A stretch of 64,000 nt of DNA, from the NCBI GenBank assembly GCA_035530615.1, contig DATKUL010000001.1:124001-188000 (forward strand), in the 5' to 3' direction. Each line of letters opens with the position of its first letter. Position 1 is the stretch's first letter. This DNA comes from Candidatus Paceibacterota bacterium (GTDB lineage: Bacteria; Actinomycetota; Actinomycetes; Nanopelagicales; Nanopelagicaceae). Position numbers and translations under genes: made by a program. This document shows positions 2,207 through 46,379 of the stretch, piece after piece. A model generated the notes under the pieces. It saw only the letters and a list, made by a program, of their open reading frames with translations, did no database searches and was not told where the DNA came from.

Positions 2207-2962
2207 CTACGAAGTGATCAAGCTCCACGCCCGCACGCCACCGATGATGCCTGCTTCATTGGGGACGATCACCACATCATCACCCAATTTATGGATAACC
2301 GAATCTTTGATTCGCCGTGAGTTTCCGCCGCCCAAGTACAAACGATCCCAAAGAAATACTGGTCGTAAGTCATCAACCATTGTGCGAACGCGTCGCGACC
2401 AGAAACTATCCCCCAATCTCCGACGTTCGTGCTCCCCTATCCATTCGTCATACATGGTTGAGCGACGGACTGGTGCATGCGAGAGTTCAATGTGCGGTGC
2501 AAGTACACCTCCATCAAAAACTGCGCAACCCAAGCCGGTTCCTAAGGTAAGTACAACTTCGAAACCAGAACCAGCCACGACACCTGCACCATGGACCTCT
2601 GCATCATTCAAAACGAGAGTCGGAATTTTCAACGCATCGATCAAAGCTTGACGCATATCAAAACCATCCCAAATCGCTTTCAATTCAGGAACCATGCGCG
2701 TCAGCGGTCCGGCAACATTAATGTAGTGGGGAGTCGCAACGACAACCCCATGTCGAATCATTCCTGGAATACCTACCGTTGCGCGATCTGCCTTCGGCAA
2801 TGACTTGGCAAGATCTGCGATGGTTTCCACTAACAGTTGTGGCGAAAGCGGATAAGGCGTAGAAATGCGAACAGCAGGGGTTCTCATTGTTCCAGCGCTA
2901 TCAAGCACTGAAGCTTTAATTCCCAGACCGCCGCAATCAACTGAAAGCGTGAGTTGTTCCAT
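2207..2962 (-). CDS. ROK-family sugar kinase resembling polyphosphate glucokinase
   Basis: This 251-residue protein has the phosphate-binding loop DCGGLGIKA at residues 9-17 (usual form DIGGSGIKG), the catalytic Asp in LNDAE (Asp-120), and a second nucleotide motif, LTLGTGLGCAVFDGG, near residues 133-147. The later stretches YDEWIGE and LYLGGGNSRR also follow polyphosphate/ATP glucokinases of the PpgK type, which phosphorylate glucose at C6 using polyphosphate or ATP. No zinc-finger CxCG motif is present, as expected for PpgK. The Cys in the first loop and His in NDAEVHGAG are unusual, so the substrate could differ. It stands alone, with no clear ribosome-binding site before its ATG. Confidence 0.75.
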   Translation of the reverse strand: MEQLTLSVDCGGLGIKASVLDSAGTMRTPAVRISTPYPLSPQLLVETIADLAKSLPKADRATVGIPGMIRHGVVVATPHYINVAGPLTRMVPELKAIWDGFDMRQALIDALKIPTLVLNDAEVHGAGVVAGSGFEVVLTLGTGLGCAVFDGGVLAPHIELSHAPVRRSTMYDEWIGEHERRRLGDSFWSRRVRTMVDDLRPVFLWDRLYLGGGNSRRIKDSVIHKLGDDVVIVPNEAGIIGGVRAWSLITS

Positions 2963-34447: not shown

Positions 34448-34873
34448 TTAAACTCGACGTGGCTTGGGTGGACGGCAACCGTTGTGGGGGGCTGGTGTGA
34501 CATCAGAGATGGCACCAACTTCCAAACCAGCAGCCTGTAATGAACGAATTGCAGTCTCACGTCCAGAGCCTGGACCCTTGACGAAAACATCGACTTTCTT
34601 CAAACCGTGCTCCTGTGCGCGACGAGCAGCAGCTTCTGCAGCCAACTGCGCGGCGAACGGAGTTGATTTACGTGAACCTTTGTAGCCAACCTGGCCTGAT
34701 GAAGCCCATGAAATAACGGCACCGGTTGTGTCGGTGATGGAAATAATCGTGTTGTTGAAGGTGCTCTTAATGTGAGCATGACCGACAGCAATGTTCTTCT
34801 TCTCCTTCTTGCGAAGTTTTACTTTGCCTTTAGCGCCTTTTGCGGCGCCGGCTTTAGCTTTAGGAGCGGCCAT
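34448..34873 (-). CDS. rpsK: 30S ribosomal protein S11
   Basis: This 141-residue platform protein of the small subunit starts with a Lys/Ala-rich segment ([17 protein letters not shown]) and then the S11 core [18 protein letters not shown], ending in [17 protein letters not shown], the conserved tail. Its ATG overlaps the rpsM stop (TAATG). Confidence 0.97.
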
Positions 34874-35250
34874 TACTTAGTCACCTTCTTCTTGCCAGCA
34901 ATTGCTTTACGAGGACCCTTACGCGTACGTGCGTTGGTGTGTGTACGTTGACCGCGAACAGGAAGTCCCTTGCGGTGACGAATACCTTGATAGCTCTGGA
35001 TTTCAACCTTGCGTCGAATGTCTCCAGCGATTTCGCGACGTAGGTCGCCCTCGATCTTGAAGTTAGCTTCGATGAATTCACGAAGTTTCGCGAGCTCTGG
35101 CTCTTGCAGATCCTTAACGCGAACATCTGGACTAATGCCAGTTGCCGCCAATGTTTTTTGTGAACGAGTAAGACCCATTCCGAAGATATAGGTGAGCGCA
35201 ATCTCAACGCGTTTTTCACGCGGAAGATCGACACCGACAAGACGTGCCAT
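34873..35250 (-). CDS. rpsM: 30S ribosomal protein S13
   Basis: This 125-residue head protein contacts the P-site tRNA through its basic tail ([20 protein letters not shown]). [20 protein letters not shown] is the standard S13 opening, so the ATG at 35250 was chosen over one at 35262 that adds four unrelated residues. No strong ribosome-binding site precedes it, and a structured 150-base leader lies upstream. Confidence 0.96.
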
Positions 35251-35269
35251 GTATTCAACCATTCAGTAA

Positions 35270-35356
35270 TCCGACAGGTCCTCCGCAATGCTCCCCATCA
35301 ATTGATGAGCCTCAGCCTGTCGGACCAAGGGTCTGCTCTCTTAATCTTTCGATTAA
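35270..35356 (-). other. Structured intergenic region between rpmJ and rpsM
   Basis: Reading the minus strand, a TTAATC-GAAA-GATTAA hairpin with a GNRA loop (35356-35341) is followed by an outer stem TCCGACAGG/CCTGTCGGA (35324-35316 with 35278-35270) that encloses the palindrome CATCAATTGATG (35307-35296). The 151-base gap is one of the longest inside the ribosomal genes. Such pairing fits a leader that modulates rpsM expression, but no known riboregulator class matches. Confidence 0.5.
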
Positions 35357-35401
35357 TCAAGCAGTCGCATCACGCGCTTGCTCTACTTCAAAATCAGAGA
35401 A

Positions 35402-35515
35402 TTAACCCTGACGTTGCTTGTGTCGGAGGTTGTCGCAGATAACCATGACGCGACCTTTGCGACGGATAACTTTGCACTTATCGCAAATCTTCTTCACGCT
35501 TGGCTTAACTTTCAT
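35402..35515 (-). CDS. rpmJ: 50S ribosomal protein L36
   Basis: This 37-residue protein is a zinc-ribbon L36: [20 protein letters not shown] followed by Gly-Arg and [15 protein letters not shown]. Cys-11, Cys-14, Cys-27 and His-32 are the zinc ligands. It lies 13 bases after infA and before rpsM, the standard alpha-operon order. It was found by direct translation between the two neighbours. Confidence 0.96.
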
Positions 35516-35528
35516 GACTGCCCTCCTT

Positions 35529-35750
35529 CTACTTGTAGCGGTAAACAATCCGACCTCTTGTGAGGTCATACGGACTCAACTCCACGATGACACGGTCAGC
35601 TGGAAGAATACGAATGTAGTTCTTTCGCATCTTCCCACTGATGTGAGCGAGGATCCTGTGCCCGTTAGTTAACTCAACACGAAACATCGCATTAGGCAGA
35701 GCTTCGGCAACGGTGCCCTCGATTTCGATAGCACCATCTTTCTTGGCCAA
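35529..35750 (-). CDS. infA: Translation initiation factor IF-1
   Basis: This 73-residue OB-fold factor binds the ribosomal A site during initiation. The protein from TTG at 35750 reads [20 protein letters not shown] after the initiator Met, a near-perfect match to actinobacterial IF-1, and ends [17 protein letters not shown] sits six bases before the TTG. An in-frame ATG 105 bases further upstream gives a non-homologous extension, so TTG is the likely start. The gene is separated from map, its usual neighbour, by the amino-sugar cassette. Confidence 0.95.
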
Positions 35751-35879
35751 GCGATACCTTCTTTTCTGTGACTGTTCGTGAGTGCTTCTTGCGAAGCGAA
35801 GGGTAAGTCTAAAGCCAGGCGTGGGTATAAGGGAAATCGGTGCCAAATTGCCCAATTTCGCGCATCCGCCACATGAGAC

Positions 35880-36818
35880 TTACACCACAGTGACCTTCCC
35901 ACCCAAGGACAGAACTCCAAGATCGCCGCGTCCAACCAAGGCTGCCGGTCGAGTCGTCATACTGGCCAGAACTGAATCAAATGGGACTCCAAGGGCCAAA
36001 AGTCGCTGAAATGACTCTTTTAAAGACCCAACTCCCCCTGCCAGGACCCCATCGGAGCGAACAGCCCGGCCATCCCTTACCGTCACCATAAAGGTGCCAA
36101 AGGGGAACGTTCCCTCTCCCAACCCTGCGGGTGAAACCGCGTCATTGGTAACGATAAAACGGTCCGGTGCATTTTCCACTGTGTAGCGGACCAATTCGTC
36201 GGTGAGATGCACGCCATCAACAATGAGTTGGATTGCGATCTCCTCCCGCTCAAGTGCTACTCCTGCAAGCCCAACACCTGGAGTCTGATCCTTGCTCATA
36301 GCATTCCAAATATGAGTCACAGTTGTCGCGCCTGCATCAAACCCGGCATGCGCTTCTTGCGTTGTGGCATTGGAGTGACCCAACGAAACAATCACACCCA
36401 TCTGCGATAAGAATCTAATGGCATCCAAAGCGCCAGGAATTTCAGGTGCGAGAGTAACCATGGTGACCGTCCCAGCACTGAGATATTTTCCTAACAACTC
36501 CTGCGTTGGCTGAGCCAAGAAATTTGTTGGATGCGCTCCAGGTTTCTCTGGCGATAGAAACGGTCCCTCAAGATGGATACCGATCACTTCGGCCTCGTCG
36601 TCTTGAGGCGATCGGCGAACTTCCTCGATCAATTTCATGACTTCGACGGTTCTAATAAGTGGACCTGTGATCAACGTGGGCAAGTATGCGCCGACACCTT
36701 GCGAAAATAGTGAGCGTGAGACTTTGCGAATATCTTCGGCGCTCTGCGCCGTAAGTAGATCAACACCACCGTGCCCATTGACCTGTAGGTCAATAAAGGC
36801 CGGAACCGTTTGTATCAT
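35880..36818 (-). CDS. N-acetylglucosamine-6-phosphate deacetylase-like protein (reduced form)
   Basis: This 312-residue amidohydrolase has the NagA metal and catalytic residues: HLEGPF (Glu-84), SLGHSN (His-148), THIWNAM (His-169), DGVH (His-204) and TNDA (Asp-226). The usual NagA is ~380 residues with a beta-sandwich built from both ends. This one starts directly at PAFIDLQVNGHGG and stops after VLSLGGKVTVV, so both sandwich parts are missing. It should deacetylate an N-acetyl-hexosamine phosphate in the cytoplasm. Its start lies six bases after the SIS-domain gene; it is the last gene of the cassette before infA. Confidence 0.8.
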   Translation of the reverse strand: MIQTVPAFIDLQVNGHGGVDLLTAQSAEDIRKVSRSLFSQGVGAYLPTLITGPLIRTVEVMKLIEEVRRSPQDDEAEVIGIHLEGPFLSPEKPGAHPTNFLAQPTQELLGKYLSAGTVTMVTLAPEIPGALDAIRFLSQMGVIVSLGHSNATTQEAHAGFDAGATTVTHIWNAMSKDQTPGVGLAGVALEREEIAIQLIVDGVHLTDELVRYTVENAPDRFIVTNDAVSPAGLGEGTFPFGTFMVTVRDGRAVRSDGVLAGGVGSLKESFQRLLALGVPFDSVLASMTTRPAALVGRGDLGVLSLGGKVTVV

Positions 36819-36824
36819 TGTCTG

Positions 36825-37862
36825 CTAGACCGTCTTGGTGACTTTTAACAAACCAACGGGAGCATCGGGATTCTTTCCCGCTGAAACTGCCAAGAAGAGG
36901 GCGAATAACTGCAATAGGACGCTATCGGCAATGACGGCATCCATTTCAGATAACTTCGATGCGCCGCCTAAGAAGGTTTCATTGGCAATCCGGGGAAATC
37001 CTGCACCAATCCAGTAGATGTGATTGGTGATCTCTCTGATCCTCTGCACCGTCACTGACATAGCATTCTCGGCGATTCCCATAGGAGCCAAGAAAATTAC
37101 GCGCGAGCCACTATGAAGGGATGAAATTGGACCGTGCAGGTAGTCTGCTGAAGAAAATGATGCGACGGGGATCTTTACTGTCTCTTGAATCTTAAGAGCA
37201 CACTCGTGAGCATTTGCATATGAATAACCTCGGCCCATCGTGGTGACGCCAGAGTCATAATCAAAATGTGAGGCGATATTCTCGATTGTTGGTGCTTGTT
37301 CAAGTGCCTTCTCCGTCTCTTCAATAAGTGCATCAAAATCAACCTTCTCGCCGCTCCAAACAGATACGAAAGTCCGAGCCACCAACAACTCGGCGGAATA
37401 ACTCTTCGTGGCGGCAACTGCCTTCTCTGGGCCGGCATGCAGATACAAATGGCAGTGAGAGATCAATGCCAGTGGACTCTCTTTGTCGTTTGTCATTGCA
37501 AGAAGAGCGGCTCCACCATCACGCGCTGCTTGGCAATAGCGAACTAAGTCCGGAGATTGGCCACTCTGACTCAGTGCGATTACTAATACGTTCTTAAAGC
37601 GGAGTTCGGCACCATAAATGGAAACCACTGATGGAGAGGCCAGACCACACGGAATGCCAATCTTTGTTTCGATCAAGTACTTCAAATACAGGGCCGCGTT
37701 ATCCGAAGTGCCTCGAGCGACGAGGATAACGGAATCAAAAGTAGAAAGAGGCAATTGATTAATCTGTCCAGCCATCTCATCTGCGCTTGCTTTGATTCGC
37801 CGGAAAACTGAAGGAATCTCTTCAATCTCCGAGCGCATTATCATTCCTAATTCATCACCCAT
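36825..37862 (-). CDS. SIS-domain sugar-phosphate isomerase/deaminase (NagB-II / AgaS type)
   Basis: This 345-residue protein has two SIS domains and no glutaminase domain. VIALSQSGQSPDLV and GPEKAVAATKSYSAEL correspond to the GlmS isomerase-half motifs ISQSGET and GPEI-VASTKAF. Proteins of this layout deaminate and isomerise glucosamine- or galactosamine-6-phosphate to a ketose phosphate. AGGATGG lies just before the ATG at 37862. It sits between the permeases and the NagA-like gene, as expected for the step after deacetylation. The cassette also has a NagB-like gene, so the two may share or split substrates. Confidence 0.82.
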   Translation of the reverse strand: MGDELGMIMRSEIEEIPSVFRRIKASADEMAGQINQLPLSTFDSVILVARGTSDNAALYLKYLIETKIGIPCGLASPSVVSIYGAELRFKNVLVIALSQSGQSPDLVRYCQAARDGGAALLAMTNDKESPLALISHCHLYLHAGPEKAVAATKSYSAELLVARTFVSVWSGEKVDFDALIEETEKALEQAPTIENIASHFDYDSGVTTMGRGYSYANAHECALKIQETVKIPVASFSSADYLHGPISSLHSGSRVIFLAPMGIAENAMSVTVQRIREITNHIYWIGAGFPRIANETFLGGASKLSEMDAVIADSVLLQLFALFLAVSAGKNPDAPVGLLKVTKTV

Positions 37863-37890
37863 ACGACCATCCTACAACAACTAAAGGTAC

Positions 37891-38754
37891 TCAACCTTTA
37901 ACAGCACCTGCAGCCAAACCAGCGGTGACTTGGCGTTGGAAAATAAGAGCCACAACGACAGGAGGGATTGCGGCTAAAACACCACCAGCTGCTACCAAAC
38001 CGAAATCTGTTGAATATTTTCCACTAAATTCTGCAACTGCTATCGGGATTGTCTTAGATGCAGAGGTAGAAGTAAAAATGAGGGCATACAAGAATTCGTC
38101 CCAGCAGAGCAATACCGCAAAGAGAACTGCCGAGAACAATCCTGGGCGCATAAGAGGTAGAAGGATTGAACGCAAAGTCATCATTTTACTCGCACCATCA
38201 ATGGTGGCAGCTTCATCAAGTTCCATTGGAATTGAATTAAGGAAACTCGTTAAGGTCCACATAACAAAAGGAGTAATAAAACTCGAGTAGACAATGATTA
38301 GTCCAATTTTTGAATCTAGCAAGTGAAGGCGAGCGAGAATTAAGTAGAGAGGGATAATAATTGCAATTGGTGGCATCATATAACTGGTTAGAAATACAAG
38401 TAATAGTGGTCGCTTGAATTGGAAACGTAAGCGTGACAGCGCATACGCTCCATAGACGCTAACAACTGTGCAAACCAACGCTGTTCCTGCGGCGATAATG
38501 AGAGAGTTCGCCATCGCAATTCGAAACCCTCCTGCTGGAGAATTAAGAGCGCCGGTTGCAATGTCGACCCAGCGTGAGAAATCAAAACGAGATGGCCACC
38601 AACGCAGTGGCCTATCCAGCAGATTCGATGAAGGAGTCAGCGATGCTAGAACCAACCAAATAAACGGTGTTAAAAATAGGAGACTGAAAAAGTAAGCAAC
38701 TGCGTGAATCCACCATGCGGCATATTTCTTTGGCGAAGAATCAACAGATTTCAT
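37891..38754 (-). CDS. Carbohydrate ABC transporter permease, MalG type
   Basis: This 287-residue membrane protein has about six hydrophobic segments and the EAA loop LDEAATIDGASKMMTLRSILLP that contacts the ATPase, the form seen in CUT1 family MalG/UgpE permeases. It pairs with the next gene, a MalF-type permease. Local base composition is AT-rich compared with the ribosomal genes (26 G+C in the 60 bases 38161-38220). No ATPase gene accompanies the permeases. Confidence 0.9.
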   Translation of the reverse strand: MKSVDSSPKKYAAWWIHAVAYFFSLLFLTPFIWLVLASLTPSSNLLDRPLRWWPSRFDFSRWVDIATGALNSPAGGFRIAMANSLIIAAGTALVCTVVSVYGAYALSRLRFQFKRPLLLVFLTSYMMPPIAIIIPLYLILARLHLLDSKIGLIIVYSSFITPFVMWTLTSFLNSIPMELDEAATIDGASKMMTLRSILLPLMRPGLFSAVLFAVLLCWDEFLYALIFTSTSASKTIPIAVAEFSGKYSTDFGLVAAGGVLAAIPPVVVALIFQRQVTAGLAAGAVKG

Positions 38755-38759
38755 CAGAT

Positions 38760-39674
38760 CTACTTGCCTCCCTTATCAAAACCAACATTCACTAAACGCA
38801 TGTAAAAAAGCGCTAATGAGAACGTGACGACAACAATAAGGAGTGCCAAACTTGAGCCATATCCGAAGTTCTGGTTGGAAAATGCCATCTGATATGAATA
38901 CAACGCTAATGAGGTTGTTCCACCGGCCGGTCCACCACGGGTCATAATGTAGACAATGTCAAAGACCTTAAAGGCCTCGATAGTGCGTAGGACCATTGCG
39001 ACTATCAGCACTGGCTTCAATAGCGGCAACATAATTGAAAAGAAAGTACGAAGCGCATTTGCCCCATCAACTTTTGCAGCTTCTAAAACATCGCCAGGAA
39101 TAGTTGTCAGTCCAGCCATAACAAAGAATGCAATAATCGATGAGTTCTTCCATACATCAGCAAAGATCACCATATGCAGGGCAACATTTGGAGTTCCAAG
39201 CCAGGGCTTATAACTCTCAATGACTCCGAGTTGAGTCAAAAGCGCATTCAAGGGGCCATAATCAGCATTAAATATGTATCGCCACATCGTTGCGTTTACC
39301 ACAGTAGGTAACGCCCAAGGTAAAAGAACTGCCGCTCGCAATAACCAGCGCCCACGAATCTTTTGAGACATGAGCAAACCCAAAATTAGACCTAACGACA
39401 TTTCCAATGCAGTCGATAAGACTGTGAAGTAGACAGTTCTACGAAAAGAATCCAGCAAACTTGAATCAGTAAGAGCATTGTGAAAGTTTTTAAATCCAAC
39501 AAAAGGAGTGGCAGTTCCTGGCATCGGAGAGAGCATCTGATGAAATGAGAGCCACACAGTTCGAAGAATCGGCCAAGTGACCAACCCAAATACAACGATC
39601 GCGGCTGGCAACAGCAAAACTGTTGCCAGACCACGGTCGCTGGTGGTGCTCGAACGCTTTTTCAATTGAAGCAA
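38760..39674 (-). CDS. Carbohydrate ABC transporter permease, MalF type
   Basis: This 304-residue permease has six predicted membrane segments and EAA-loop residues PGDVLEAAKVDGANALRTFF. It belongs to the CUT1 UgpA/MalF type. The only plausible start is TTG at 39674, three bases after the binding-protein stop, with no strong ribosome-binding site, so it probably depends on translation of the upstream gene. The region is AT-rich (23 G+C in 39361-39420). Confidence 0.9.
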   Translation of the reverse strand: MLQLKKRSSTTSDRGLATVLLLPAAIVVFGLVTWPILRTVWLSFHQMLSPMPGTATPFVGFKNFHNALTDSSLLDSFRRTVYFTVLSTALEMSLGLILGLLMSQKIRGRWLLRAAVLLPWALPTVVNATMWRYIFNADYGPLNALLTQLGVIESYKPWLGTPNVALHMVIFADVWKNSSIIAFFVMAGLTTIPGDVLEAAKVDGANALRTFFSIMLPLLKPVLIVAMVLRTIEAFKVFDIVYIMTRGGPAGGTTSLALYSYQMAFSNQNFGYGSSLALLIVVVTFSLALFYMRLVNVGFDKGGK

Positions 39675-39677
39675 CTA

Positions 39678-40991
39678 TTAGCCAGCCAAGAGTTTGTTAA
39701 CTTCAGCCTCGGCATCTTTAAGCGCCTTAGCCGGGGTAACAGAACCAGTGAGAGCTTTCTGAATTGCAACTTGCAATTTCTGTGAAACGGCGTTGTACTG
39801 CGTAGCAGCTGGACGGTTTACCATGTTAGCTAATTGCTTTTTGGCAACTGGAACCACATTTGGCGCACTGGCAACTACCGCGGCTGACTCATAGGACGCA
39901 CCCCAAATTGGCAATGAATCTGCAACATATTGTTCCTGAATTGCCTGGCTAGAGACGAATTCAGCAAAAGCCCATGCTGCATCTTGATTCTTTGAATTTG
40001 CAGTAATTGAAAGAGCCGAAGAGCCGTTCACACTCTTATGCCCTCCGCCAGAATCTGGAACTTCCCCAATCGCAATCTTTCCTGCCATTTTGGACTGCTC
40101 AGGGTCATTAGCTGCGGCATACATGTATGTCCAGTTCAAACCGATCGAAGCGTCTCCGGCACTTATAAGCTTACGTACATCATCCTCAAGAGCTTGCATT
40201 GAGGATGGGTTGGTTATGCCATCGACAACAGTTTTGCGCATGAATTCCAGCGCTTGCAATGCGCCACCATCTGCGAAAGCTGGCGCTCCGGCTTCATCAA
40301 ATATCTTTCCACCAAAGTCAGCAGTCATGGCTGTCCAATCACAGATCACTGCTTCGGCCTGAGCCCAAGACCAGATCAATGGATATCGAATACCAGCCTT
40401 GGCTTTAATCGCCTTGGCTGCAGTGGCGACACCATCCCAGCTAGATAAAGATGCTTTATCTACGCCTGCCTTTGCTAAATGGTCTTCGTTCCAAAAAAGG
40501 TACTTAGTGTCCAGGAGCCATGGAACACCATAATACTTTCCGTCGTACACGGCTGAATTCAATGCGCCACCAAGGACATCAGTCGCCCAGGTACTAGGAA
40601 TACGATTGCTGATATCTGCGATCAAGCCTTTACTCGCAAATTCGGCTGGCCAGATTACATCAATGAAAACCAGATCGTAGGTACCTGCTGGAGCAGCCGC
40701 GACGATTTTGTCATGCAGTGCCTCATATGGAACATACTCAGGCTTTATTGTCACGCCAGGGTTCTTCGCCGTGAAAGCGGCGATCATTGCATTAATATGT
40801 TCTTCAGAGTAGCCAGCTTGCTTCATAAAAAGCGCACCAAGTGTTCCAGTTAGTGCAGCACCGGTCGCTGATGTTGCATTTGTGGTCTTTGAAGAATCCG
40901 AATTACTTGAACATGAGGCAAGAACGCCTGCAGCACCTAAACCGACGGCACCAACAAGTAAGCCTCTACGAGAAACACGATAATCAGACAA
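39678..40991 (-). CDS. Carbohydrate ABC transporter substrate-binding lipoprotein (Tat-type signal)
   Basis: This 437-residue protein has a twin-arginine signal SRRGLLVG (residues 7-14) and lipobox LASC (Cys-27), followed by a Ser/Thr linker and a family-1 sugar-binding fold (TYDLVFIDVIWPAEFASKG, then WAFAEFVSSQAIQEQYV). It should bind a di- or oligosaccharide outside the membrane, plausibly an amino sugar given the downstream enzymes. The start is TTG with a strong GGGGAGG site five bases away. It heads the run binding protein, two permeases, SIS protein, NagA-like protein. Confidence 0.9.
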   Translation of the reverse strand: MSDYRVSRRGLLVGAVGLGAAGVLASCSSNSDSSKTTNATSATGAALTGTLGALFMKQAGYSEEHINAMIAAFTAKNPGVTIKPEYVPYEALHDKIVAAAPAGTYDLVFIDVIWPAEFASKGLIADISNRIPSTWATDVLGGALNSAVYDGKYYGVPWLLDTKYLFWNEDHLAKAGVDKASLSSWDGVATAAKAIKAKAGIRYPLIWSWAQAEAVICDWTAMTADFGGKIFDEAGAPAFADGGALQALEFMRKTVVDGITNPSSMQALEDDVRKLISAGDASIGLNWTYMYAAANDPEQSKMAGKIAIGEVPDSGGGHKSVNGSSALSITANSKNQDAAWAFAEFVSSQAIQEQYVADSLPIWGASYESAAVVASAPNVVPVAKKQLANMVNRPAATQYNAVSQKLQVAIQKALTGSVTPAKALKDAEAEVNKLLAG

Positions 40992-41113
40992 TTTTTCCTC
41001 CCCTTGCTTCGACGTTTCTTACCCGATTTACCCTATTCTCACTTACCCACGTAGGCAAGAGACCTGATTTTTAGCCGTTTTATACGAATAAATCTTTAAC
41101 GTGGAATAGGTCC

Positions 41114-41905
41114 TCAGTTGGCTTCATTATCAATTACTAATTGCCTATTTGCGCATTCAAAAAAAACACTCGCTGGCCAATCAGAATCGTATGCTCTCCG
41201 CTTGAGGAGTTCTGAAACTGCCTTCTTCTTATGTTTTCCGTGCATAACCATCACCACCCTTTTAGATAGAGATGCGATAGTGTCAATACCAACCGTGACA
41301 CCGTACTGAGGAACATCTTCAACAGATTTAAATTCAGGAAACGTTCCTAAGTTGTCGATACGCGTTGAAAGTGCCACCTCCACAACGCGCGTTTTTGATT
41401 CTCGCGCACTACCTGGTGGATTAAATGCAATATGTCCATCGCTGGCACCACTTGCCAAAATGAAGAAGTCGATGCCGACCTCTCGTAGCCAATTCTCGTA
41501 TTCTTCAGGGCGCTGCGCATCGGGGATGCGAACAGATTTCAATTCGCGAGCCGATCCAGCCGCCGTGTTAAGAGGGTGACCTATTTCTAATTGGGCGAAT
41601 CTGGCACATGAATAATGGGCAGCCGGGTCAATGTTGGAGAACTTCCCTTGGTTCTCAACAACATACTCATCCATCATCGCAATATTTACATGGCTAAGAG
41701 AAATATTCCGCTTCCCAACTTCTTGGGCAAGGGCTTGAAATATCACTCGAGGCGTCCGGCCTCCTGGGCACCCCAGGACAAACTCCCTGCCTTGGATAGA
41801 AGTTTGCTCTATGTCATCAATGATTTGCCTAGCTACGAAATTGCCTATCTCTAATGGGCTATCAAGAACTATTGGAACCACGCAATATCCGATCTCTTGA
41901 AGCAT
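41114..41905 (-). CDS. Glucosamine-6-phosphate deaminase-like protein (NagB family) with altered site
   Basis: This 263-residue protein follows NagB: a phosphate-loop region LGCPGGRTP (usual LGLPTGSTP), MDEY with Asp-79, and SDGHIAFNPPGS with Asp-156 and His-158. NagB has HIAFNEP, whose Glu (E. coli Glu-148) helps catalysis; here the position is Pro-163. The phosphate loop has Gly-Gly-Arg instead of Thr-Gly-Ser/Gly. The protein therefore belongs to the family but may act on a different phosphorylated sugar or have changed activity. It is transcribed from the shared region upstream of the ROK gene. Confidence 0.78.
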   Translation of the reverse strand: MLQEIGYCVVPIVLDSPLEIGNFVARQIIDDIEQTSIQGREFVLGCPGGRTPRVIFQALAQEVGKRNISLSHVNIAMMDEYVVENQGKFSNIDPAAHYSCARFAQLEIGHPLNTAAGSARELKSVRIPDAQRPEEYENWLREVGIDFFILASGASDGHIAFNPPGSARESKTRVVEVALSTRIDNLGTFPEFKSVEDVPQYGVTVGIDTIASLSKRVVMVMHGKHKKKAVSELLKRRAYDSDWPASVFFECANRQLVIDNEAN

Positions 41906-41940
41906 TAAGGGAACTGACCATGCTCTTCTGTCCTGCGGAG

Positions 41941-41968
41941 ACTATAGTACAAAACCATACCATTGCAA
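41941..41968 (-). promoter_or_regulatory. Promoter candidate for the NagB-like gene
   Basis: On the minus strand, TTGCAA (41968-41963) and TATAGT (41946-41941) are separated by 16 bases, 36 bases before the start codon. The region also contains the strings CCATACCA and GATACC, possible half-sites for the GntR regulator, but no clean inverted repeat. Confidence 0.5.
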
Positions 41969-41976
41969 GACAAATC

Positions 41977-41990
41977 TGATACCTTTTCCT
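41977..41990 (+). promoter_or_regulatory. Extended -10 promoter and probable leaderless start for the ROK gene
   Basis: TG-A-TACCTT (41977-41985) is an extended -10 box of TANNNT type. The ATG begins five bases after it, about where transcription would start, and no ribosome-binding site is visible. Leaderless mRNAs are common in actinobacteria. Confidence 0.45.
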
Positions 41991-42779
41991 ATGGTGAAGC
42001 GGATAGGCGTGGATATTGGTGGTACGAAAATTGCGGTCGCAATCATTGATGTATCAGTAGGAAAAGTTCTCAAATCAGTACAAGTTCCGACCCCGCCGGC
42101 GGGAAGCCGAGAAGAGGTCCTTCAGACGATCCGCTCTGCAGTCAGCGCTCTTGGATTAGTCGAAAAACTGCCGATAGGGATCGGAGTGTGTGAGTATGTC
42201 GATAATGCGGGGAGAATACTCTCTTCCTACGCGGTAGATCTCAAAGATGCGAACCTGCCTGCTGAATTTGCCGACCTGGGCGATGTTGTTGTTGGCTCGG
42301 ATGTTCGCGCTGGAGCCATGGCTGAGTTCAGATTTGGTGCCGCCCGTGGCACTGCTTCCACATTTTACGTTTCAGCCGGAACTGGAATTAGTTCGTGCTT
42401 GCTACTAAATGGGGTGCCATTAATCGGAGCACACAGCGTTGCAATCGTACTCGGTGCACCACCAGTCGAAATTCAATCAAGCGGACGAGCACTAGACAAG
42501 AAGCGACAGGAGAGTGATTTGACCGAACCTCAACTTCATGAACTCGTGACACTAGCTGGTCGACGAACTGGTGAAGTGGTAGCAACCATTGTTAATGCCA
42601 TTGATCCTGAACTGATTGTTATCGGCGGAGGTTTGGGATTAAGCGAAACTTTCTTCAATTCTTTGGCCGAAACGGTACTCCTCCTCGCACATAAGGATAC
42701 TCCAAGTCCCTATCGTGTAGTCCCTGCAGAACTTGGTACTGATGCTGGTGTTATTGGTGCCGCATTATTGACATACTAA
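41991..42779 (+). CDS. ROK-family sugar kinase (short form without zinc motif)
   Basis: This 262-residue protein opens with the ROK phosphate loop VDIGGTKIAVA (residues 7-17). VVGSDVRAGAMAEF carries the probable catalytic Asp-104, and VSAGTGISSCLL is the second nucleotide loop. ROK sugar kinases normally have a GH motif and CxCGxxGC zinc site between here and the SGRAL segment; both are missing, and the protein is about 40 residues shorter than the norm. It probably phosphorylates a hexosamine or related sugar, but the substrate is open. It is divergent from the NagB-like gene. Confidence 0.78.
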   Translation: MVKRIGVDIGGTKIAVAIIDVSVGKVLKSVQVPTPPAGSREEVLQTIRSAVSALGLVEKLPIGIGVCEYVDNAGRILSSYAVDLKDANLPAEFADLGDVVVGSDVRAGAMAEFRFGAARGTASTFYVSAGTGISSCLLLNGVPLIGAHSVAIVLGAPPVEIQSSGRALDKKRQESDLTEPQLHELVTLAGRRTGEVVATIVNAIDPELIVIGGGLGLSETFFNSLAETVLLLAHKDTPSPYRVVPAELGTDAGVIGAALLTY

Positions 42780-42844
42780 GTCACGGCGAGAACAGATCAA
42801 CTTGGTGCACTTCCAAATAGTAAGGAATGAACTCGAGGAATTAA

Positions 42845-43594
42845 ATGCCTAATATCTCTGGTCTTCCACAACCACTTTACGAACAAGCGAGTATTGCTAT
42901 CACAAAGAGTCTTCGTGAAGGCGTGTACCGACCTGGTTCACGGCTTCCTTCTGAGCGGGTCATGAGCCAGGCTCTTGGCGTAAGTCGGCTTACTCTGAGA
43001 CATGCCTTAGCTAATCTTGTTAAGCAAGGCCTAGTAGAACAAACTCAAACTCGCGGTTGGTTTGCCGCGCAGACGGTAAGTGAAGGTCAAAATCAATTAT
43101 TGAGTTTTTCCGCCATGGGGGAACTCCGCGGATTAAAGCCCTCCACTCAAATTATTGAATCACAAGTTCATCCAGCGAGTATTGAGGAATCCATTACTCT
43201 GCGAATTGCGCCAGGCTCGGATGTCTTCGATTTAACGAGATTGCGTATGTTAGACGGCATTCCCATTTCTGTAGATCGTTCCCGCCTTTCACTCCAACGT
43301 TTTTCATGGCTATCTAACATCGATTTTAGAAAGGAATCACTTTACAATCAGCTAGAGAAACACGATTGCAAGCCTACGCACGCCGATTATGTCATCAGTG
43401 TAGAAGATGCAGACCAAAAGACGGCTGAACTTCTTCAGGTAGAAATCGGCAAAGGTCTTTTATTGTCAAATGGAACAACCTTTGATCAAGTCGGTTTCCC
43501 AATTTCACTTGATAGAATCCTCTATCGATCAGACCGTTACCGTTTACAGACAAGATTAAACCGAGATAGTTCGAATATCTTCACAGACAAGTGA
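42845..43594 (+). CDS. GntR-family regulator with UTRA domain
   Basis: This 249-residue protein has a winged-helix domain (residues ~10-75, RPGSRLPSERVMSQALGVSR being the recognition region) and a UTRA effector domain (residues ~95-235). That combination is the HutC/NagR/DasR type, whose members bind amino-sugar phosphates. GAGGA lies five bases upstream of the ATG. It follows the ROK gene by 65 bases and is the obvious regulator of the cassette. Operator sites were not confidently found. Confidence 0.88.
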   Translation: MPNISGLPQPLYEQASIAITKSLREGVYRPGSRLPSERVMSQALGVSRLTLRHALANLVKQGLVEQTQTRGWFAAQTVSEGQNQLLSFSAMGELRGLKPSTQIIESQVHPASIEESITLRIAPGSDVFDLTRLRMLDGIPISVDRSRLSLQRFSWLSNIDFRKESLYNQLEKHDCKPTHADYVISVEDADQKTAELLQVEIGKGLLLSNGTTFDQVGFPISLDRILYRSDRYRLQTRLNRDSSNIFTDK

Positions 43595-43607
43595 AAATCA
43601 AGAATCC

Positions 43608-44420
43608 TTACTGTAGCAACTCAGAAATCTCTATCCCTAGTTCGCCTAAGCGCTCTTTCCCGCCGTCCAGCGCCGTCAGCACGAATGGTTTTCCATCAGG
43701 CAAGAGCGCATAGGTGTGTTCGAAGTGGGCGCCATGTGATTTATCTGCCGAGACCACAGTCCAGTCATCTTTCAGAACCTTGGTTCGATGAGTGCCGCGA
43801 GTGATCATTGGTTCAATTGCAAGGACTAGCCCTGGAGTTAATTCAGGCCCGAAACCTCGTTTGCCGAAATTAAGTACATGTGGTTCTTGGTGCATCTCCG
43901 TGCCAATCCCATGCCCACCATACTCTTTCAAAATTCCAAAATTACCTTGCGAATTGATGTACTGCTCGACCGCATGACCAATGTCCGAAAGGTGCGCACC
44001 GACGCACCCCGCCGCAATTCCTCGCCACATCGATTCTTCGCAAACGTCCAACAATTTTTGATCCTGTGGATCCACTGTCCCAATAATTGTCGAAAATGCT
44101 GCATCCCCATGCCATCCCTCAACGATTGCCCCACAATCGATCGAGACGATATCCCCGTCCTCAATAATACGATTACCCGGAATTCCATGGACAATTTCAT
44201 CATTGAGTGAGACGCAGATAGTGCCAGTGAAGCCGTGGTAGCCGTTGAAATTGGAGGTTCCGCCGCCGCGCTTTATATTCGCGGCAGCAATCGCATCAAG
44301 TGCGTCAGTACGCATTCCGATCTTGATTGATGATTTCACTACCTCAAGTGTCTGCCCAACAAGCAACCCTGCGCGGCGCATGACCTTCATTTGGTCCAAA
44401 GTCTTCAACTGAATTGCCAC
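43608..44420 (-). CDS. map: Methionine aminopeptidase, type I
   Basis: This 270-residue enzyme removes N-terminal Met from nascent proteins. The five metal ligands are all visible: Asp-95 and Asp-106 (IDCGAIVEGWHGDAAFS), His-170 (GGHGIGTEMH), Glu-203 (AIEPMI) and Glu-234 (FEHTYALL). There is no N-terminal zinc-finger extension. The start is GTG. It lies 13 bases after adk and converges with the GntR gene. In most relatives infA follows directly; here the amino-sugar cassette does. Confidence 0.96.
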   Translation of the reverse strand: MAIQLKTLDQMKVMRRAGLLVGQTLEVVKSSIKIGMRTDALDAIAAANIKRGGGTSNFNGYHGFTGTICVSLNDEIVHGIPGNRIIEDGDIVSIDCGAIVEGWHGDAAFSTIIGTVDPQDQKLLDVCEESMWRGIAAGCVGAHLSDIGHAVEQYINSQGNFGILKEYGGHGIGTEMHQEPHVLNFGKRGFGPELTPGLVLAIEPMITRGTHRTKVLKDDWTVVSADKSHGAHFEHTYALLPDGKPFVLTALDGGKERLGELGIEISELLQ

Positions 44421-44433
44421 TATAAATGCCTAA

Positions 44434-45084
44434 CTAGTGGACGCGACTAAGCGCGGAGATAGCTCGCTCAGTGATCTCTGATACCGAGCCAGATGCACTG
44501 ATGGTGATGAGTAAGCCTTCGGTACGATAAAAAGAAATAATTGGGGCTGTTTGCTCTTGGTAAACCTCAAGCCGACGGGTGATTACCTCTTCTTTGTCGT
44601 CTTCACGTTGGTACAACTCACCTTGACAGGTATCGCACTTCTGCGGATCTGTAGGTTTATCAAATTCAAGATGCCAGACCTTGCCACAGTTGCGACAGAC
44701 GCGGCGTCCAGAAAGACGGAGAATGATTTCTGAGATAGCAACAGAGAGTTCCAACGCAGCGCTGAGCGGCGTCCTCTTCTCTGCCAAAATAGCTCGAAGG
44801 ACTTCGGCTTGCGCGACATTTCGCGGAAAACCATCGAGGAGAAATCCGTTGGCGACGTCATCCTTGCCTAAGCGATCACGGACCATCTCATTTGTTACTG
44901 AGTCCGGGACTAAATCGCCACGATCCATAAAAGATTTCGCCTCAATTCCCAGCGGGGTTCCCTCTTTTAAATTGGCGCGAAAAATGTCACCCGTGGAGAT
45001 GTGCGGAATTGCATAGTGCGAAGCCAGGAATTGAGCCTGCGTTCCTTTGCCAGCACCTGGTGGACCAACCAGGACCAAACGCAT
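44434..45084 (-). CDS. adk: Adenylate kinase
   Basis: This 216-residue enzyme interconverts AMP, ADP and ATP. The P-loop is GPPGAGKGT (residues 7-15), and the AMP-site DGFPRN lies at residues 84-89. The LID domain has a zinc site with Cys-130, Cys-133, Cys-150 and Cys-153, the long zinc-binding form. Its start overlaps the secY stop (TAATG), the classical spc-operon arrangement. Confidence 0.97.
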   Translation of the reverse strand: MRLVLVGPPGAGKGTQAQFLASHYAIPHISTGDIFRANLKEGTPLGIEAKSFMDRGDLVPDSVTNEMVRDRLGKDDVANGFLLDGFPRNVAQAEVLRAILAEKRTPLSAALELSVAISEIILRLSGRRVCRNCGKVWHLEFDKPTDPQKCDTCQGELYQREDDKEEVITRRLEVYQEQTAPIISFYRTEGLLITISASGSVSEITERAISALSRVH

Positions 45085-46379
45085 TAGCGCAAGAACCCCT
45101 CGTATGAACGTTGCTGTAACTGACTTTCGATCTGCTTGGCAGTATCAAGTCCAACACCTACAACGATCAAGATCGCGGTTCCACCAAATGGGAAGTTCTG
45201 GGTGGCACCGAAAAGAATAAGCGCAAGGATCGGAATAATCGCAACGAAGGCCAGATAGAGAGAGCCAGGGGCGGTAATTCGAGAAAGTACGTACTGCAAA
45301 TATTCAGAAGTTGGACGACCAGCGCGGATGCCCGGTACGAATCCACCGTATTTCTTCATGTTGTCAGCAACCTCATCCGGGTTGAAGGTAATTGCGACAT
45401 AGAAGTAGGTGAAGAAAATAATCAGTGCTGCGTAAGAAAGGATGTAGACCGGGTGATCACCCTTGACGAAGTTCCGGGAAATCCACACGGCCCAACCGGC
45501 CTGACTATTTGTGAAGTTAACTATCAAGGATGGAATGTAGAGAAGCGAGGAAGCGAAAATCACGGGGATAACACCAGCCTGGTTGACCTTAATTGGAATG
45601 TAGGTGCTTGTTCCGCCATATGACTGGCGGCCAACCATACGCTTGGCATATTGAACTGGGATACGCCTCTGCGCTTGTTCAACGAAGACAACTGCTGCCA
45701 CTACAAGTACACCAACTGCAAGTACGAAGACGAATGCGAAGAGGCCCTTCTGCAATTTGATGCTCCACAAGTTTCCGGGGAAACCAGCCGCGATAGAAGT
45801 AAAAATCAAGATCGACATACCGTTACCGACTCCGCGGTCAGTGATCAATTCACCGAGCCACATGATTACCGAAGTACCTGCCGTCATAACGAAGATCATG
45901 GTGACGATGCGTGGCCATGAAGTATCAGGAATGATGGGGGCATCACATCCAGAAATCAATCGACCAGGAACGCGCGCTACTGCAACCAGGCCAGTTGACT
46001 GCAAGATTGCAAGGCCAATGGTCAAATAACGGGTGTACTGGGTGAGTTTCGCAGTTCCTGATTGGCCCTCTTGCTTCAAAGTTTCAAAGCGAGGAATGAC
46101 AACGGTCAGAAGCTGAATAATGATCGAGCTGGTGATGTAAGGCATGATGCCGAGAGCGAAAACAGAGAGTTGGAGAAGGGCTCCACCGCTGAAGAGGTTG
46201 ATGAGACCAAAGAGGCCGCCGGATTCAACCTGCTTGAGACAACTCTGCACGTTGGCATACGAAACGCCCGGGGTTGGAACAACCGAACCGAAGCGGAAGA
46301 GACCCATGATCGAGAGGGTGAAGAAAATCTTCTTGCGCAGATCTGGAGTCCTAAAGGCCTTACCAAATGCTGATAGCAC
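45084..46379 (-). CDS. secY: Preprotein translocase subunit SecY
   Basis: This 431-residue protein has ten predicted membrane segments and forms the channel through which Sec substrates cross the membrane. FRFGSVVPTPGV near the N-terminus, the TRYLTIGLAILQS segment and the cytoplasmic loop with RRIPVQYAKR are typical of SecY. The start is GTG at 46379. A 96-base gap separates it from rplO, so internal promoter activity is possible. Confidence 0.97.
   Translation of the reverse strand: MLSAFGKAFRTPDLRKKIFFTLSIMGLFRFGSVVPTPGVSYANVQSCLKQVESGGLFGLINLFSGGALLQLSVFALGIMPYITSSIIIQLLTVVIPRFETLKQEGQSGTAKLTQYTRYLTIGLAILQSTGLVAVARVPGRLISGCDAPIIPDTSWPRIVTMIFVMTAGTSVIMWLGELITDRGVGNGMSILIFTSIAAGFPGNLWSIKLQKGLFAFVFVLAVGVLVVAAVVFVEQAQRRIPVQYAKRMVGRQSYGGTSTYIPIKVNQAGVIPVIFASSLLYIPSLIVNFTNSQAGWAVWISRNFVKGDHPVYILSYAALIIFFTYFYVAITFNPDEVADNMKKYGGFVPGIRAGRPTSEYLQYVLSRITAPGSLYLAFVAIIPILALILFGATQNFPFGGTAILIVVGVGLDTAKQIESQLQQRSYEGFLR

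Follow-up and report, generated by a model that had tools for sequence, protein, structure and literature searches.

A helping role in ring opening is ascribed to Glu148 of the glucosamine-6-phosphate (GlcN-6-P) deaminase NagB. This residue contacts the catalytic His143 in the R structure of the Escherichia coli enzyme (PMC4008608). The regulator NagR, which like DasR carries a UTRA domain, binds phosphate through Thr90, Arg133, Arg135, Ser165 and Tyr167 (PMC4333415). A GlcN-6-P deaminase with the SIS fold is represented by the Shewanella protein NagB-II (structure 8eol). Here we compare these systems with a cassette encoded in a 64,000-nucleotide stretch of a Nanopelagicaceae genome (contig DATKUL010000001.1; hereafter, the window), in which an earlier note had seen three reduced enzymes that might jointly process an unusual aminated sugar.

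The cassette lies within a ribosomal-protein run, secY-adk-map-[..]-infA-rpsM-rpsK-rpsD-rpoA (gene names were read from the translations), and all eight of its genes were confirmed. Encoded on the minus strand are a NagA-derived amidohydrolase of 312 amino acids (35880..36818), a SIS-domain protein (36825..37862), two ABC permeases, MalG-like (37891..38754) and UgpA/MalF-like (38760..39674), a sugar-binding protein of the SBP_bac_1 type (39678..40991) and a NagB-like protein (41114..41905); the plus strand encodes a ROK-family kinase (41991..42779) and a GntR/UTRA regulator (42845..43594). The divergent intergenic region between the NagB-like and ROK genes (41906..41990) contains a single promoter-like match, which reads along the minus strand, and the number of such matches across the scanned region was not above chance. 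The importer had been called intact, a description that does not hold: only the binding protein and two permeases were found, and the cassette has no ATPase gene. If this importer (37891-40991) works, it must rely on a shared ATPase encoded elsewhere in the genome.

Comparison with related genomes shows that the region is composed of two units, one consisting of the SIS protein and the NagA-like protein (unit A) and the other an inserted module of the UTRA regulator, the ROK kinase, the NagB-like protein, the binding protein and the permeases (unit B). Judged against the map-SIS junction of the relatives, the inserted module spans 37863..43607, flanked by the map stop on one side and by the SIS leader known from those genomes on the other. 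The GC3 values of its genes are 0.37-0.44, versus 0.43-0.55 for most of the flanking genes.

The NagA-like protein lacks the composite β-sandwich that is contributed by both ends of the chain, as had been noticed earlier and is now borne out by profile, alignment and model. The TIGR00221 match is limited to profile positions 55-356 of 380 and does not reach the curated cut-off (215.5 vs 225.65 bits), the alignment to E. coli NagA is confined to residues 53-356 of 382, and an AlphaFold2 model (pLDDT 86, from an alignment of 7 rows) can be superposed on NagA structures only at about positions 45-363, that is, on the barrel, with a best Z of 36.7 (6fv4). Likeness to NagA resides in the barrel fold, in the metal and catalytic residues, and in a deaminase as gene partner; E84, H148, H169, H204 and D226, to which we assign metal-binding and catalytic roles, are kept and are invariant with the standard NagAs. 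Arg227 of E. coli NagA, which contacts the phosphate from the partner subunit, is not clearly kept. Because just 6 bases separate this gene from the SIS gene, a longer start is impossible without overlap, and a mis-called start or a frameshift was ruled out by this gap and by a dozen congeners that encode the protein in the same trimmed form. Judging from the sequenced genomes, the reduction of NagA is a trait of the family: in searches of 296 family genomes (E thresholds of 1e-60 for NagA and 1e-80 for SIS), the lineage was detected in 43, and the members examined are mostly barrel-only proteins of about 299-312 amino acids. In two genera (g2 and g10), approximately 40 N-terminal residues remain and the C-terminal part is already gone, which suggests a possible stepwise loss of the sandwich. 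Another genome (G027) encodes, near rpsM, an apparently decayed NagA remnant of 283 amino acids (L033, 1453-2304) that has lost the metal-binding His motifs.

The SIS protein looks standard, as had been remarked. Its top NCBIfam match is NagB-II (NF046059), which it meets below the equivalog cut-off (209.8 vs 430 bits); most of the length of NagB-II can be aligned to it, and alignments to 8eol, 3fj1 and 7kqa show that E220, K224, E227, H243 and K340, which we take to be the GlmS-type catalytic residues, are retained. An assignment as a NagS-type GlcNAc-6-P dehydratase (PMC12680351) was provisionally set aside on the NagB-II/GlmS-like length and on the alignment to NagB-II and GlmS proteins. 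With these features, the SIS protein is likely to be a deaminase acting on GlcN-6-P; the earlier note had raised deamination by this protein as one of two options.

Homologues of the SIS protein were found in 80 of the 296 family genomes. The usual order in the relatives is map-SIS-NagA-infA, without unit B, and the encoded SIS and NagA proteins, mostly 61-83% identical to those of the window, occur together in the absence of the NagB-like protein. In one genus (g15) the two genes are separated by a gap of some 950 bases, which in genome G034 holds a gene for a BadF-family kinase of 313 amino acids; in G020, a GH3 enzyme and an importer are encoded between SIS and NagA. The association of the pair with a BadF kinase or a GH3 hexosaminidase in these relatives makes ordinary use of GlcNAc-6-P likely. 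The SIS protein and the trimmed NagA would, most likely, form a route from GlcNAc-6-P to fructose-6-P, in which NagA would use its metal barrel, which is intact, to deacetylate GlcNAc-6-P, and the SIS protein, as an enzyme of the NagB-II type, would convert GlcN-6-P to fructose-6-P and ammonia. Across several genera, the ribosomal-protein operon harbours the pair between its map and infA genes. This spot (34873-46379 in the window; L048-L056, L059 and L060 in the relatives) accepts varied insertions, among them an importer of the peptide type (L051), further genes that separate SIS from NagA (L054), a UTRA-importer-GH3 set (L050) and a TetR-like gene (L050, L052 and L053, with a gene of similar size in L060).

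In unit B, the NagB-like protein shares with NagB (TIGR00502, PF01182) the fold and the equivalents of D72, D141, H143 and K208 of the E. coli enzyme (Asp79, Asp156, His158 and Lys226), and its model (pLDDT 96.7) is nearest to NagB (Z 32.0, to 2bkv). The alignment confirms two previously reported peculiarities, Pro163 in the place of Glu148 and a phosphate loop that reads Gly48-Gly49-Arg50. Both extend well beyond the window. Glu148 is absent from all 67 aligned members of the clade, the window protein included, its position being occupied by Pro in 49, Gln in 6, Gly and Asn in 5 each, and Ala and Ser in one each; Arg50 is found in 66 of the 67, and the equivalent of E. coli Arg172 is not kept in the clade. 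The members were collected with a scan for the DGHxAFN or IAMMD[ED]Y motif, so that conservation of those letters is partly a product of selection; position 148 and Arg50 lay outside the pattern. In the tree, these proteins form one clade apart from ordinary NagB (support 100/99), with the window protein on a long branch.

The clade is widespread. The scan of named genomes yielded a further set of proteins with 34-51% identity, from Actinobacteria, Alphaproteobacteria (Rhizobium, Shinella, Caulobacter and SAR11), Gemmatimonadota, Deltaproteobacteria and Lentisphaerota, and Planktophila lacus has a locus related to that of the window. Within the family, four genomes encode relatives (43-48% identity) beside a ROK gene in other cassettes. 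In one genome (G002; L045, 10737-12284), a fusion of glycerophosphodiester phosphodiesterase and inositol monophosphatase adjoins the ROK and NagB-like genes, and an open reading frame of similar size is located at the corresponding position in G018, G004 and G043 (domains were scanned in G002 only). We know of no enzyme activity reported for any of the clade members found.

The kinase and the regulator show changes of a comparable kind. The ROK protein passes the PF00480 cut-off (113.3 vs 22.9 bits) and shares with glucokinases and polyphosphate glucokinases the family fold motifs and the catalytic Asp (Asp104 in the alignment); in its 262 amino acids, as reported before, both the GH and the CxCGxxGC zinc motif are missing. 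Polyphosphate glucokinases are likewise short ROK proteins without the zinc motif. The window protein differs from these kinases in an SDVR motif and an altered sugar-contact segment, which it has in common with many of the ROK proteins linked to NagB-like genes; just two of the linked ROK proteins have the zinc motif. It clusters with them in a quick tree (SH-aLRT 98, long branch), and no close relative (E 1e-25) was detected in the other family genomes searched. A further ROK-family match, possibly a polyphosphate glucokinase, lies elsewhere in the window (2507-2947, minus strand, in a 257-residue frame). The regulator is nearest to NagR and DasR among solved structures. The linked UTRA proteins retain the phosphate-binding residues of NagR (Thr90 or Ser, Arg133, Arg135, Ser165 and mostly Tyr167), whereas the sugar contacts are changed: Glu145 is replaced by Asp in the window protein and in 17 of 26 linked proteins, and Glu222 by Ser in the window and mostly by Leu in the relatives.

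Partner genes were counted within 9 kb of the 67 NagB-like loci. A ROK or BadF kinase is present in 53, a UTRA regulator in 25 and the two permeases in 41 and 36, respectively, with a binding protein gene in many; no NagA or SIS homologue was found within this distance in any of the 67. One set of loci contains a GH4 enzyme, mostly with BadF, and another combines a Gfo/Idh/MocA dehydrogenase with an IolE-like protein, often a cupin and mostly ROK. The order in Shinella sp. HZN7, for example, is binding protein, isomerase/epimerase, NagB-like protein, ROK, ATPase, permeases, dehydrogenase, TetR and cupin. The window itself has neither GH4 nor the dehydrogenase and IolE-like genes, and its binding protein is unlike the commonest one of the linked loci. 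GH4 was not found in a single search of the whole genome; a search of the same genome with the IolE-like protein of P. lacus, for which there was no positive control, gave no match. A limited literature search yielded no relevant paper on kanosamine catabolism or a GH4/BadF/NagB cluster, and nothing useful on acI and GlcNAc.

Two units, clade-wide residue changes and conserved gene partners can be read directly from the sequences, and the reactions, substrates and regulation proposed for them here are predictions. By the distribution of its genes, the NagB-like/ROK/UTRA/ABC set is a widely distributed, uncharacterised variant system. The retention of Asp79, Asp156, His158 and Lys226, together with the gain of Arg50, argues for a phosphorylated substrate and NagB-like proton transfer, and the loss of Glu148, combined with the altered sugar contacts of kinase and sensor, indicates a different sugar phosphate. 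Unit B thus probably handles a sugar phosphate other than that of NagB; this part of the earlier proposal, that the NagB-like protein and the ROK kinase act on something other than GlcN-6-P, gains from changes that are shared across the clade. The imported sugar would be phosphorylated by the ROK (elsewhere BadF) kinase, and the UTRA repressor would sense the resulting sugar phosphate. On this compound the NagB-like protein would act via Asp79, Asp156 and His158, most likely by C1-C2 proton transfer, as an isomerase or deaminase-isomerase whose chemistry does without the Glu that serves ring opening in NagB. For this account as a whole, with unit A as the resident GlcNAc-6-P route and unit B as an inserted system for another sugar phosphate, we put the probability at roughly 60%. 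Since GH4 or an inositol-type dehydrogenase and IolE-like proteins are the partners, the substrate might be an amino sugar that is modified, C3-oxidised or carbocyclic. The complete statement, a catabolic system that has not been described before and is spread over several phyla, with a substrate other than GlcN-6-P and a NagB-fold enzyme that needs no ring-opening Glu, is advanced tentatively.

The alternative that survives best, unlikely as we consider it, is a single ordinary GlcNAc/GlcN pathway with two deaminases, in which the NagB-like protein deaminates GlcN-6-P, the ROK protein is a GlcNAc/GlcN kinase and the SIS protein is redundant or serves under other conditions. Such a pathway would agree with NagB as the nearest fold, with the retained proton-transfer Asp and His, with a regulator nearest to NagR/DasR and with NagA and SIS genes that adjoin unit B. 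It fits poorly with a separate clade that lacks Glu148 throughout, with a score half the NagB equivalog cut-off (116.1 vs 236.9 bits for TIGR00502), with linked loci devoid of NagA, and with the sugar contacts of NagR that are not kept.

The integrated variant pathway of the earlier note, in which a single unusual aminated sugar is the target of all the reduced enzymes, appears somewhat less probable still. The genes are adjacent, and those for the NagB-like protein, binding protein, permeases, SIS and NagA all run in one direction, an arrangement that speaks against the two-unit reading and by which both units could act on one substrate in this genome. The reduced NagA and SIS, however, occur without unit B in the relatives, as do the relatives of unit B without NagA or SIS, and among all relatives and linked loci compared, the three reduced forms, and units A and B, come together in this genome only. 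By these comparisons, the features noted in the cassette trace to two conserved lineages, independent of each other, which come together in one genome.

On a par with the integrated pathway, and similarly doubtful, is the reading of the NagB-like protein as a sugar-phosphate lactonase. A Gly-Gly-Arg loop and the lack of the Glu are features of 6-phosphogluconolactonases, which belong to the same superfamily; the Shinella sp. HZN7 homologue is publicly annotated under that name, and many linked loci encode a dehydrogenase that could make a lactone. Superposition on 6-phosphogluconolactonase folds reaches a Z of 24.3, clearly behind the value for NagB, the TIGR01198 score is far lower than that for the NagB profile and below its own cut-off (43.1 vs 124.45 bits), and 17 of the 22 GH4-type loci have no Gfo/Idh/MocA dehydrogenase nearby. 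Decay or loss of catalysis in the NagB-like and ROK proteins, for which the missing motifs and the shortened ROK might speak, is very improbable given open frames, other catalytic residues kept and identical changes conserved over several phyla.

Public annotation tends to place these proteins under standard family names. Yet abundant bacteria of fresh water, the sea and soil encode a NagA lineage that does without its β-sandwich and a NagB-like clade whose active site differs. Once settled, the substrate of unit B would name a carbohydrate route for oligotrophs, acI and SAR11 among them, and would bear on the real role of Glu148 in the chemistry of NagB.
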